Assembly: GCA_903826575.1 (NCBI GenBank)
Contig: CAIKEU010000024.1
Location: forward strand, 1-58,747
Reading direction: 5' to 3'
Origin: an uncultured bacterium
Lineage (GTDB): Bacteria > Actinomycetota > Actinomycetes > S36-B12 > CAIYMF01
Length of the DNA stretch: 58,747 nucleotides
In this document: positions 42,004-52,036 of the stretch, one piece after another
Numbering within the stretch: position 1 is the stretch's first letter
Layout: every line of letters starts with the position of its first letter
Notes under the pieces: model-generated
What the model saw: the letters and a program-made list of their open reading frames with translations, nothing else
Told to the model about the DNA's origin: nothing
Databases searched by the model: none
Position numbers and translations under genes: made by a program

Positions 42004-42076
42004 GCCCTAGTAGCTCAGGGGATAGAGCATCGGTTTCCTAAACCGTGTGTCGCAGGTTCGATTCCTGCCTAGGGCA
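42004..42076 (+). tRNA. tRNA-Arg (anticodon CCT)
   Basis: A 73-nt cloverleaf: acceptor GCCCTAG / CTAGGGC, D-arm GCTC-AGGGGATA-GAGC, anticodon loop TTCCTAA with anticodon CCT, and T-arm GCAGG-TTCGATT-CCTGC. CCA is not encoded. A TACGAT -10-like element lies at 41973-41978. Its 3' half is duplicated at 44489-44534, which marks it as an integration target. Confidence 0.96.
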
Positions 42077-42078
42077 CT
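42033..42078 (+). repeat. 46-bp direct repeat, left copy (att-like, inside tRNA-Arg)
   Basis: The 46 bases from the anticodon stem through 2 bases past the tRNA 3' end are identical to 44489-44534. A perfect repeat of a tRNA 3' end flanking a short insert is the classic footprint of tyrosine-recombinase integration. Confidence 0.85.
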
Positions 42079-42161
42079 TGCTCGTCACTCATGTTGATCG
42101 CGGATCAGTTCCGTGGCTACCTGATGCTGCATGGCGCTCAGCGAAATCACAGGTGAAGCAT

Positions 42162-43043
42162 ATGTCTCCCAAATTTCAACCTGTCAGGCTTGGAGCCATG
42201 ACTAATGTCACGACGAATGCCGTGACTGTGCCCTCTGGTTCCCGCTACCTAGCCAACAAGGTGCCGGAAGTCACGATCTTCTTCTGGATTATCAAGATCT
42301 TGTGCACGACAGTGGGTGAGACGTTCGCCGACTTCTTGAACACCAACCTGAATCTTGGGCTCACGAACACAACGTATGTGATCGGGGCGATTCTCATTGC
42401 GGTTCTCGGGGTGCAGTTCTACGTCAAGCGCTACATTCCCACGATCTACTGGCTCGCGGTTGTTCTGGTGAGCATCGTGGGTACCCTCATCACCGACAAC
42501 CTCACAGATAATTTGGGTGTCAGTCTGGAAACGACGACCCTCGTGTTCGCGGTCGTCCTCGCTCTTGTCTTCGCCGCGTGGTACGCCAGCGAACGCACAC
42601 TCTCGATTCATTCGATCGTGACGCCTCGTCGCGAAGCGTTCTACTGGCTGGCAATTCTCTTTACCTTCGCTCTCGGCACGGCAGCCGGTGACCTGGTGTC
42701 GGAGAAGTTCAACCTTGGCTACTTCGTCGCAACTGCGATCTTCGCTGGCTTGATCGCCGTGATTGCGGTTGCGTGGAAGATGGGACTCAACGAAGTTCTT
42801 TCGTTCTGGGCCATCTACATCCTGACGCGTCCGCTGGGCGCGTCAATCGGTGATTCACTAGCCCAGTCCAAGGATGACGGCGGCTTGGGCCTCGGAACAG
42901 TCACGACGAGTTTCATTTTCCTCGGTGCAATTCTTGCTCTCGTCATTTACCTCACGTCAACTCGCGTCGACGTCACAGAGAATGTCCTTAATGACGGGGA
43001 AATCAATGCGACTCTCGACAGTGGAGACCTCGAAAAGCACTAA
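42162..43043 (+). CDS. multi-pass membrane protein with four internal repeats (COG4705-like)
   Basis: A 293-residue integral membrane protein. Four copies of [FY]W-x9-G-x4-D occur with Trp at residues 42, 97, 162 and 216 and Asp 15 residues later each time, all in hydrophobic segments. This resembles the uncharacterised COG4705 membrane protein family. Start ATG 42162 is chosen for AGGTG upstream; ATG 42198 is possible, and a frame that opens at 42045 would begin inside the tRNA. It lies within the repeat-bracketed islet and is followed by a paralogue 18 bases downstream. Confidence 0.8.
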   Translation: MSPKFQPVRLGAMTNVTTNAVTVPSGSRYLANKVPEVTIFFWIIKILCTTVGETFADFLNTNLNLGLTNTTYVIGAILIAVLGVQFYVKRYIPTIYWLAVVLVSIVGTLITDNLTDNLGVSLETTTLVFAVVLALVFAAWYASERTLSIHSIVTPRREAFYWLAILFTFALGTAAGDLVSEKFNLGYFVATAIFAGLIAVIAVAWKMGLNEVLSFWAIYILTRPLGASIGDSLAQSKDDGGLGLGTVTTSFIFLGAILALVIYLTSTRVDVTENVLNDGEINATLDSGDLEKH

Positions 43044-43061: not shown

Positions 43062-43844
43062 ATGGCGTTTGACATACGGCAAACTTCCGATGCGAGCGTG
43101 GGACACGGACTTAGCAAGGTACCTGAAGTTACGGCCCTGTTCTGGGTCATCAAGATCCTGACTACCGGTATGGGCGAAACGACATCTGACTTCTTCGCAC
43201 ACACGATCGGTCCGATAGTCGCGGTGGGTCTCGGGGGTGTCGGTCTGCTGGTGGCACTGGTGCTTCAGTTCAGAACCGATCGCTACCGGCCATGGCAGTA
43301 CTGGTCGTGCGTGGTGATGGTCAGCGTCTTCGGCACGATGGCTGCCGACGTGATTCACGTGGGCCTTGGTGTCCCGTATGTCGTTAGCTCCATTGCGTTT
43401 TCGATCGCTCTGGCCGTGATCTTTGCGGTGTGGTTTCGAAGCGAAGGCACTTTGTCGATTCACAGCATCACTAATCCGCGACGTGAACTGTTTTATTGGG
43501 CGACGGTGCTGGCCACTTTCGCGCTGGGCACGGCAGTTGGAGATATGACGGCTACGACGTTCCACTGGGGTTACTTCTTCTCCGGTGTCGTCTTCGCCTT
43601 TCTCATCTGCATTCCCGCGCTTGCCTACGCGCGGTTCGGGCTGAACGCGATTGTTGCCTTTTGGTCGGCCTACATTCTGACTCGTCCACTTGGTGCTTCG
43701 TTCGCGGACTGGATTGCAGTGCCGCCGTCACGTGGTGGTCTCAACTGGGGCACCGGCCTCATTAGCTTGGTACTGCTCGTGGTCATCATCGTGCTTGTCG
43801 GATATCTTTCGCGGACGCATGCTGACGACCCACATCGTTCTTGA
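43062..43844 (+). CDS. multi-pass membrane protein, tandem paralogue of the preceding gene
   Basis: A 260-residue protein with the same four [FY]W-x9-G-x4-D repeats (for example LFWVIKILTTGMGETTSDFF and AFWSAYILTRPLGASFADWI) and the shared cytoplasmic loop SEGTLSIHSITNPRREL. It lacks the N-terminal extension of its neighbour. The pair probably arose by duplication and may form a hetero-oligomer. Function unknown; transport is a guess from topology alone. Confidence 0.8.
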   Translation: MAFDIRQTSDASVGHGLSKVPEVTALFWVIKILTTGMGETTSDFFAHTIGPIVAVGLGGVGLLVALVLQFRTDRYRPWQYWSCVVMVSVFGTMAADVIHVGLGVPYVVSSIAFSIALAVIFAVWFRSEGTLSIHSITNPRRELFYWATVLATFALGTAVGDMTATTFHWGYFFSGVVFAFLICIPALAYARFGLNAIVAFWSAYILTRPLGASFADWIAVPPSRGGLNWGTGLISLVLLVVIIVLVGYLSRTHADDPHRS

Positions 43845-50133: not shown

Positions 50134-50179
50134 ACGACGCCGACTGAACCTCCCCCCGGATTAGTTCAGTCGGCGTCGT
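50134..50179. terminator. perfect 16-bp hairpin, bidirectional terminator
   Basis: Arms 50134-50149 and 50164-50179 (ACGACGCCGACTGAAC and its complement) with a 14-base loop lie between the convergent ends of the DMGDH-like and cytochrome genes; CTTCTT follows on the plus strand. Confidence 0.85.
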
Positions 50180-50211
50180 CTTCTTACTTGAGTGCGCCGG
50201 GCTGTGTCAGG

Positions 50212-51204
50212 TCAGCGCCGGCCGTACTCGCGGTAGTAGTCCTTCCACACCAGTCGCGATACGGGGATCCACTTCGGAACCGATCGCAGGCCTGGGATAA
50301 ACGGTACGAACACGAAGATCAGAACAACGACCATCATGATTGCGAAGATGATTGCGTCCGCATTGTCTGTAAGAGTTTGCGCAAACGTGTTGTTCGGATC
50401 TGTATTGTTGAAGGCTGGTAGCTGATACCAGAACGAGAATGGTGCGAGCCACATCTGACCTGGCCATGAGCCGGCCTCGTTCACCATGCCCCAGGTATTG
50501 CCCTGAAGGTTGTCGGTTGTTGCAATGTCGTCCATGTACGAACCGTCACCCATCAGCAACATCTGCTTGGTTTGATCGGTTGAGAAGAACTGGCCCTGCA
50601 TGATTGCGCCGTCGTATGCGCCCGTCTTAGCCATGTCCACAACTGCCTGTGCCAGAACGGAAGTTGGGCCGTAATCACCGGTTGGGACCTTCGCGGGATC
50701 TCCGTTGGCGCCAGCCGCATCGTTTAATGCTGTGTCGTAGTTACTCGCCCACTGCGTTTGCTGCTCTGGAGTAGCCGCATTCCACTGATCAACGGCAGCC
50801 TTGACGTCAGCCGACATCGTTTGTGATTCGAGTGGCTTAATCACGAAGTCCTGCGATGCGTTGATGGGGTGTGTGACGCCCATCCACTTCTGCATTGCGA
50901 TCGGCCCAACGCTGAGGCCCTCGGAGTTGTTGTTGTAAGGCGGGCCGTAGTTGTACGTGTCGCTCGTTCCGGCCAGCTCAGCGACCATCGTGGTGTACAT
51001 GCTGTCTGGTGAACTCTGCGCCCAACTCTTGAACGTCAACTGCTTGTCATCAGGTGAACTGAAAATGGCCGCCAGTGCCGCAACCAGTACGGTCACAATC
51101 ACCAGGGCGATGGCACCTTCTTTGAAGATGTCGTAGTGACGCGTTGGCCCATCCCATGGACGAGAGTCGAGATCCTGTGTTGGCGCGTGACGGAGACTCA
51201 TCAT
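50212..51204 (-). CDS. membrane subunit paired with cytochrome b, large extracytoplasmic domain
   Basis: A 330-residue protein. One hydrophobic segment (EGAIALVIVTVLVAALAAIF, about 29-48) is followed by about 230 mostly soluble residues rich in Asn, Asp and Tyr, then a second segment (AIIFAIMMVVVLIFVFVPFIPGL) and a basic tail. No CxxCH or Cys pair is seen, so it carries no c-type haem or Rieske cluster. It stands where the C-terminal half of cytochrome b (subunit IV) would be expected but shows no clear match to it. Start 51204 has GGAGGT 6 bases upstream and overlaps the cytochrome b stop (ATGA). A reading frame that continues upstream to 51801 is a shadow of cytochrome b. Confidence 0.8.
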   Translation of the reverse strand: MMSLRHAPTQDLDSRPWDGPTRHYDIFKEGAIALVIVTVLVAALAAIFSSPDDKQLTFKSWAQSSPDSMYTTMVAELAGTSDTYNYGPPYNNNSEGLSVGPIAMQKWMGVTHPINASQDFVIKPLESQTMSADVKAAVDQWNAATPEQQTQWASNYDTALNDAAGANGDPAKVPTGDYGPTSVLAQAVVDMAKTGAYDGAIMQGQFFSTDQTKQMLLMGDGSYMDDIATTDNLQGNTWGMVNEAGSWPGQMWLAPFSFWYQLPAFNNTDPNNTFAQTLTDNADAIIFAIMMVVVLIFVFVPFIPGLRSVPKWIPVSRLVWKDYYREYGRR

Positions 51205-51884
51205 GACGCCACCTCCGTAATGGCAACAGTGTGAGCGTGATCGATTGCTTCTGCCGGTGGAACAACTCCGCGATAGCGCACCAGTAGGACGTGCATCACC
51301 ACGATCACTCCGACGCAGAGTGGAAGGAGCGCAACGTGCATGAGCACCATCTGACCGAAGTCGGTCACGTTGATCAGGGCACCCATCCCCACGGAATTGA
51401 GAACATCCTTGGATTCGAATGCAATCCACTGGGAGTTGAAGTTCGTCTGGATCAGATAGCCGGTGAATGCGGTGGCGATCGACATGATCATCGCGATCGC
51501 GCCAGTAATCCACGTCATTGCGCGGCGTCCACGCCAGGCCGACATCCAGAACTTGCCCCACAGGTGGACTGTCATGAACAGGAAGAACATTTGCACGGAC
51601 CAGAAGTGCAGGCTGTTCATGTAATGACCGAAGCTGGATGTGTGCCACCACTGCACGCCACCGATGGTTAGAACGATGCCGGTGACGATGATGACGATGA
51701 GCGAAACGATAGTGAGCATTCCGAATACGTAGATCCACGACGAGACGTACTTTGGCTGGGTCTCCGGAAGCATCTTCTCCGGTGGAAGCTCGCGCATCCA
51801 AAGGGCGCGGATCTTCCCGGTCCAGGTGGTGGGTTCCTCTGGCGATGGTGCCGCGTCAACGCGAGGCAGGTCGGTGGTCGTCAC
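51201..51884 (-). CDS. cytochrome b N-terminal domain protein, b6-like
   Basis: A 227-residue four-helix dihaem cytochrome b core. His93 and His107 (HFWSVQMFFLFMTVH) and His183 and His198 (HVALLPLCVGVIVVMH) are the four haem ligands. The second pair is separated by 14 residues, the spacing of cytochrome b6; mitochondrial-type cytochrome b has 13. It should oxidise or reduce quinol within a membrane complex. Starts with GTG that overlaps the stop of the 51-aa gene (GTGA). No Rieske protein or cytochrome c gene is in the window. Confidence 0.9.
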   Translation of the reverse strand: MTTTDLPRVDAAPSPEEPTTWTGKIRALWMRELPPEKMLPETQPKYVSSWIYVFGMLTIVSLIVIIVTGIVLTIGGVQWWHTSSFGHYMNSLHFWSVQMFFLFMTVHLWGKFWMSAWRGRRAMTWITGAIAMIMSIATAFTGYLIQTNFNSQWIAFESKDVLNSVGMGALINVTDFGQMVLMHVALLPLCVGVIVVMHVLLVRYRGVVPPAEAIDHAHTVAITEVAS

Positions 51885-52036
51885 TTGTGCTCACCGCCCT
51901 TGGGAAAGGGTAGGAGGAGTGCGCCGACAAAAAGCAGCACAAGAATTGCAAAGAGAATCAGGTTTGGTGCGGAGATAGACCAGATTCCCCAGGTGAAATA
52001 ATCGGCTGGATGGTCCAGCGCTGCGATCCCAATCAT
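51881..52036 (-). CDS. 51-residue single-span membrane protein of the cytochrome b operon
   Basis: A small protein beginning MIGIAALDHPADYFTWG, with one transmembrane segment (NLILFAILVLLFVGALLLPF, about 25-44) and a charged end KGGEHK. GGAGG lies 5 bases before the ATG and the stop overlaps the cytochrome b GTG (GTGA), so it is the first gene of the operon. It is probably a small accessory subunit of the cytochrome b complex. Confidence 0.8.
   Translation of the reverse strand: MIGIAALDHPADYFTWGIWSISAPNLILFAILVLLFVGALLLPFPKGGEHK

Follow-up and report, generated by a model that had tools for sequence, protein, structure and literature searches.

Three overlapping genes that look like an undescribed membrane electron-transfer complex in many actinobacteria

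The locus considered here lies on an actinobacterial contig of 58,747 nucleotides, which was analysed over its whole length and is referred to below as the window. The initial annotation had called three genes in this region, and all three are present on the minus strand, in the order small subunit, cytochrome, and large subunit (Table 1); the gene that it had taken to open the operon, encoding a 51-aa protein with a single span, does come first, reading from 52036 to 51881. Both junctions are 4-nt translational overlaps: at the first, GTGA (reading AAGTGACG), the stop codon of the small gene falls within the GTG start of the cytochrome gene, and at the second, ATGA (reading TCATGATG), the cytochrome stop falls within the ATG of the large gene. 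Because both junctions overlap, the three genes are likely translated as one operon; sites of the GGAGG type precede the small gene and the large gene. Between this operon and a convergent 807-aa gene lies a perfect inverted repeat that is a likely candidate for a bidirectional terminator (it was read from the letters by eye, its loop being too long for the hairpin scan).

Table 1. Features of the three-gene locus, with window coordinates and the basis for each assignment.
Feature	Position	Strand	Basis
Small subunit of 51 aa with a single transmembrane span	51881..52036	-	Hydropathy; homologue directly upstream of cytochrome b in 49/50 distinct loci; fused ahead of cytochrome b in L065 and L066
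Cytochrome b6-like subunit of 227 aa, predicted to be dihaem with four helices; starts at GTG	51201..51884	-	PF13631 and PF00033 above cut-off; 4-nt overlap with both neighbours
His93, predicted haem ligand, pairs with His183	51606..51608	-	Invariant in 15 relatives; aligned with cytochrome b6
His107, predicted haem ligand, pairs with His198	51564..51566	-	Invariant in 15 relatives; aligned with cytochrome b6
His183, predicted haem ligand	51336..51338	-	Invariant in 15 relatives; PDB b6 alignment
His198, predicted haem ligand	51291..51293	-	Invariant in 15 relatives; PDB b6 alignment
Large subunit of 330 aa with two spans, without a match among Pfam, NCBIfam or PDB families	50212..51204	-	Profile and sequence searches; hydropathy; family alignments
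First span, residues 30-48 of large subunit; cytoplasmic motif Y24-D25-x-x-K28-E29 before it	51061..51117	-	Hydropathy; no variation at D25 or E29 among 51 sequences
Extracytoplasmic domain, residues 49-284 of large subunit; invariant E243, P248-G249, W252, Y260	50353..51060	-	Hydropathy; 51-sequence alignment
Second span, residues 285-303 of large subunit, then P-F-I-P-G	50296..50352	-	Family alignment; hydropathy
16-bp perfect inverted repeat with 14-nt loop, ACGACGCCGACTGAAC / GTTCAGTCGGCGTCGT	50135..50180	.	Read directly from sequence

The same gene set recurs well beyond this contig. Among 394 genomes sampled from the class, 37 encode the large protein and 35 encode a cytochrome of the triad type, all of the latter being within the former; the two of the 37 that carry no such cytochrome (G064 and G131) have mere fragments of the large gene. 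A further sample of 396 genomes from the phylum contains the large protein in 11, including members of families from other classes, and no match was found in the plasmids or viral contigs searched. At every locus whose neighbourhood was read, in the class and phylum samples alike, the cytochrome gene adjoins the large gene, and 49 of 50 distinct loci have a homologue of the small protein upstream of it (the resemblance being weak in three, L027, L079 and L136). Co-occurrence across the Actinomycetota, which the initial annotation had raised as a way of checking the unit, is nearly perfect, and fusions of all three genes exist: both copies in one genome (G069) are a single small-cytochrome-large reading frame (L065, 629 aa; L066, 641 aa), and the cytochrome and large subunit share one frame in G087 (L046) and in G133 (L078). 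The order of the parts in these fusions is compatible with every junction lying on the cytoplasmic side of the membrane. Pairwise distances for the cytochrome and the large protein correlate with r = 0.81 over 49 loci, a figure that shared ancestry alone could produce. Because 50 distinct loci keep it, the gene set is conserved far beyond chance, and it is well supported that the three genes make up one obligate three-part unit.

The middle gene product (P0002) is recognizably a cytochrome b. In Pfam profile searches it exceeds the cut-offs of PF13631 (44 bits against 27) and PF00033 (37.1 bits against 27.2), and its best sequence match in the PDB is chloroplast cytochrome b6 (E 3e-10). All four predicted haem-ligand histidines are invariant in 15 relatives, with 13 residues between H93 and H107 and 14 between H183 and H198, the latter bearing out the b6-type spacing originally read from this sequence. 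Equally invariant in these relatives are the glycine pairs G55/G69 and G128/G142 of helices A and C, spaced by 14 as in cytochrome b. Comparison with b6, QcrB, and bovine cytochrome b shows that the helix-B arginines are lost (b6 R83 becomes N90 and b6 R103 becomes G110; both lie near the haem propionates in bc1 and b6f structures), and that the LPW of the cd region is replaced by IQT; the haem-c cysteine C35 of b6 corresponds to V53, and the cytoplasmic-side arginine is kept (b6 R207 is R203 here). Spinach b6 and bovine sequences served as references, and that of b6 agrees with the PDB alignment. A low-confidence structural model of the cytochrome (pLDDT 55) has cytochrome b6 or cytochrome b in all of its 14 best Foldseek rows, at E 0.007 or worse, and reaches a VIA Z of 11 to b6, but de novo helical bundles reach 10-12. 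In a tree, all 50 triad cytochromes group in a single clade (SH-aLRT 100), well away from five bc/b6f cytochromes; we are unsure where this clade would be placed within the superfamily, the outgroup branches being long.

The large subunit had been described as an unrecognised protein with one span, about 230 extracytoplasmic residues, and a final span, and both parts of that description hold. Hydropathy puts about 236 residues between the two spans, and profile and sequence searches with the 330-aa protein match no Pfam, NCBIfam or PDB family, with nothing above noise in these collections, whether the query was the single sequence or a profile of 15 or 40 members. An AlphaFold2 model built from five family sequences has a pLDDT of 45, and the Foldseek rows obtained with it are noise. 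In the family, 22 residues are invariant across 51 aligned sequences, including D25 and E29 on the cytoplasmic side and E243, P248-G249, W252, and Y260 in the extracytoplasmic domain. The 330-aa protein contains no cysteine at all, and its extracytoplasmic domain has no cysteine or histidine that is conserved across the family, which makes a c haem, an iron-sulfur cluster, or a type-1 copper site there unlikely. In the 51-aa small subunit, hydropathy places the span at about residues 26-44, and the protein is probably oriented with its N-terminus outside and its C-terminus (KGGEHK) inside. The end of this span, LLLPFPKG (window 51881-51960), resembles the end of the second span of the large subunit, VFVPFIPG (50296-50352), and a common origin of the two is possible.

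Several known systems share parts of this arrangement. In the b6f complex (PetB/PetD), as in the triad, cytochrome b is split: a separate gene, some 215-230 aa long, encodes a dihaem subunit of four helices (both predicted for the triad), the gene for a membrane partner comes next, and single-span small subunits also occur. The triad, however, is without a Rieske protein, cytochrome f, the c-haem cysteine, Arg83, Arg103, and PEWY, and whereas subunit IV of b6f has 160 aa and three spans, the partner in the triad has two spans and a 236-residue domain. Actinobacterial QcrB, part of the bcc-aa3 supercomplex, belongs to the same superfamily and is separately encoded in the same genome as the triad; its single chain carries a fused C-terminal domain and PDWY, and its gene shares an operon with those for QcrC and QcrA, whereas the triad cytochromes fall in another clade and score far below the cut-off of the NCBIfam model bc1_QcrB_actin (NF050120; 21.3 bits against 500). 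The best NCBIfam match of the triad cytochrome is ExtP (NF040969; E 1.3e-14), also below cut-off (54.6 bits against 290). ExtP, from the selenite/tellurite ext cluster of Geobacter, is likewise a lone b6-type cytochrome, which we take from its family name to be placed with electron export rather than with a b6f complex; unlike in that system, no multihaem cytochromes occur near the triad within the window. A search of open-access papers yielded nothing on a Rieske-less cytochrome b or on the triad, which is weak evidence of absence.

Respiration and photosynthesis have cytochrome b complexes as their shared core, and the known ones all need a Rieske iron-sulfur protein to split the electrons of quinol. 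The initial annotation had remarked that no Rieske protein or cytochrome c is encoded near the operon, and this extends to the whole 58.7-kb window, in which no frame of at least 70 codons contains a CxxCH or Rieske motif. Across loci, no shared neighbour gene encodes a c-type cytochrome (c1, cc or f), and no Rieske gene is conserved beside the unit. The motif was seen beside one locus only, in a gene (L072:6113-7696, in G144) that fuses a DoxD/DoxX membrane domain to a Rieske domain and lies close to, and convergent with, the triad. Rieske proteins are encoded elsewhere: the host genome has a complete QcrCAB, with QcrA adjoining QcrB on contig 106, as well as a Tat-type lipoprotein Rieske on contig 1, and some Rieske protein is present in every unit-bearing genome tested, so the unit might borrow one. 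An unassigned small periplasmic Rieske protein is, however, absent from three genomes with the unit. G250 has no Rieske of the small size class; in G620 (97% complete) the Rieske search returns only QcrA and a 118-aa ferredoxin-type protein beside Suf-like genes; and in G505 (97% complete, with two copies of the unit) the sole Rieske gene sits immediately before a bc gene that itself carries PVWY and CxxCH. As these three genomes have no spare small Rieske, a dedicated one is not part of the unit. The operon in question in G505 (L152, on contig 15) is of the bc type, with a Rieske gene and, after it, a single gene in which cytochrome b, a PVWY-bearing subunit IV part, and a CxxCH domain are united. 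No haem-copper oxidase (COX1) was detected in G505 or in G498, which argues against a tie between the unit and aerobic cytochrome oxidases.

Gene neighbourhoods say little about a substrate: over about 30 loci, no shared neighbour gene pointing to one was found beyond near relatives. The flanking genes of the window, for the 807-aa FAD protein and a 483-aa protein, are shared in synteny among close relatives; a homologue of the 807-aa FAD gene also lies near the unit in L071. In unrelated genomes, genes of a stress or hypoxia type are found near the triad, namely those for Hsp20 (L057), Usp (L065), a NarL-type regulator with a GAF kinase (L072), and several Usp-like proteins (L135). Such neighbours hint that the triad is regulated under low oxygen; a search for a DosR-like hypoxia box upstream of the unit found none.

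On balance, we favour a reading in which the unit would work without a Rieske protein as a transmembrane electron conduit, linking a (mena)quinone site at the cytoplasmic face with an extracytoplasmic partner. The cytochrome b, with four predicted helices, would hold two stacked b haems, the two-span large subunit would cover the extracytoplasmic face, its domain replacing the site where a Rieske protein would dock, and the one-span small protein would act as an accessory subunit; electrons would pass between the N-side (mena)quinone site and the partner outside. Two stacked haems across the membrane would imply transmembrane electron transfer, and the combination of conserved N-side features with a remodelled, capped P-side suggests that the quinone site lies inside and that a partner of another kind lies outside. 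The initial annotation had suggested a possible distinct quinone-linked complex, and this is borne out in part: the three-subunit unit is supported, and quinone reactivity we infer from kinship and from a few conserved residues of the cytoplasmic side, namely R203, which corresponds to b6 R207, and K28/E29, which may resemble the K/D of bc1; the direction of electron flow and the identity of the partner are likewise points that we infer. Whether the triad amounts to a class of its own seems to us evenly balanced: it would be a Rieske-less and c-haem-less dihaem cytochrome b with a cap subunit of unknown fold, with a patchy distribution that covers several Actinomycetota classes and reaches lineages in which no haem-copper oxidase is detectable, and would carry out an undescribed transmembrane electron transfer.

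The foremost alternative, which we nonetheless consider unlikely, is a divergent quinol oxidase of the bc/b6f type, in which the large protein would be a subunit IV enlarged by about 190 residues inserted after helix E and ahead of the Qo motif, and a Rieske protein from elsewhere (QcrA or the Tat lipoprotein) would complete a normal Q cycle. With hhalign, the second span of the large protein and its PFIPG fall on helix F and the PF of subunit IV (P 0.009-0.036), and the first span falls on helix E, with Y-x-I-F-K-E over the bc1 Qi motif Y-x-x-x-K-D (of the reference sequences, that of Nostoc subunit IV was checked against PDB 2zt9). However, when columns were permuted within hydrophobic and polar blocks, 84 of 200 shuffles scored as high for helix E and 18 of 200 for helix F (of these, 19 and 6, respectively, kept the same diagonal), and kinship of the large protein with subunit IV or the C-terminal half of cytochrome b is suggestive only. 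PF00032 was not among the families weakly matched by the large-protein sets A1 and A5, although its model also missed QcrB in these genomes. If the kinship were true, the extracytoplasmic domain would be the insertion of about 190 residues, placed before a degenerate Qo helix, and would cap the Rieske docking surface. Also against this reading, no P-x-W-Y of the PEWY type is conserved in the large subunit (51 sequences), the candidate being an S-x-W-Y without the proline and the acid, in which W259 is present in 45 of 51 sequences and position 258 holds F, L, V, M, I or S, never D or E; the region can be aligned in two ways, through PGQxW or SxWY, and neither gives PEWY. As for the Rieske protein itself, all 37 class genomes with the unit match the Tat lipoprotein (E<=1e-10), compared with 273 of 357 without it (no p-value was put on these counts because the genomes are related), but Rieske proteins are nearly universal and hence unspecific, and in the small-genome family f28, where they were classed by ORF length, 8 of the 9 genomes with the unit and 13 of the 19 without it encode a small Rieske. 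The Tat lipoprotein was accordingly set aside as the missing partner, being present in most unit-free genomes as well, with per-genome counts in f28 that do not tell the two groups apart. The sole Rieske of G505, adjoining a separate bc gene, and the lack of a cytochrome c in the unit weigh in the same direction.

Two other readings rank lower. It is rather improbable, in our estimate, that the unit is an electrogenic quinol:quinone oxidoreductase, in which a P-side quinone site in the large subunit would pass both electrons through the two haems to an N-side quinone with no protein partner. Such an enzyme would suit two haem sites that span the membrane, a P-side domain without a metal site, and a unit that stands alone in very different neighbourhoods, in aerobes as well as where no COX1 is detectable, but a P-side domain of 236 residues is large for a mere quinone pocket, and the quinone-binding residues are putative at most. 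More doubtful still, to the point of being very improbable, is a haem-based redox sensor, or a scaffold for assembly or haem handling, that does not conserve energy; the Hsp20, Usp, and NarL-type regulator and GAF kinase genes beside some unrelated loci would accord with this, whereas most loci have no stress or signalling neighbours, no box for a shared hypoxia regulator turned up upstream, and the complex contains no signalling domain. Our ranking therefore favours electron transfer to an extracytoplasmic partner, followed by a Q cycle with a borrowed Rieske, a partnerless quinol:quinone enzyme, and lastly a sensor or scaffold.

If the unit is indeed a Rieske-less conduit to an extracytoplasmic partner, then a stable cytochrome b complex of this kind, retained by streamlined genomes of small size and by others in which no haem-copper oxidase is detectable, would show that the dihaem core has a further use. 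Such a complex would provide an extra respiratory module for abundant aquatic actinobacteria and a first functional hypothesis for three protein families.

Some further observations were made in passing. At three loci of family f90 (L129, L133, and L134), the triad lies near genes that resemble, by sequence appearance, those for haem A synthase and protohaem farnesyltransferase. Within the window, 42045-43043 and 43062-43844 encode two tandem, mutually similar membrane proteins of the same cluster, which are also found in relatives. Finally, the frames at L160:2003-3257 (in G492), made up of GSPPPARGA, ITPACAGST, and DHPRLRGEH repeats, look like a translated CRISPR array.
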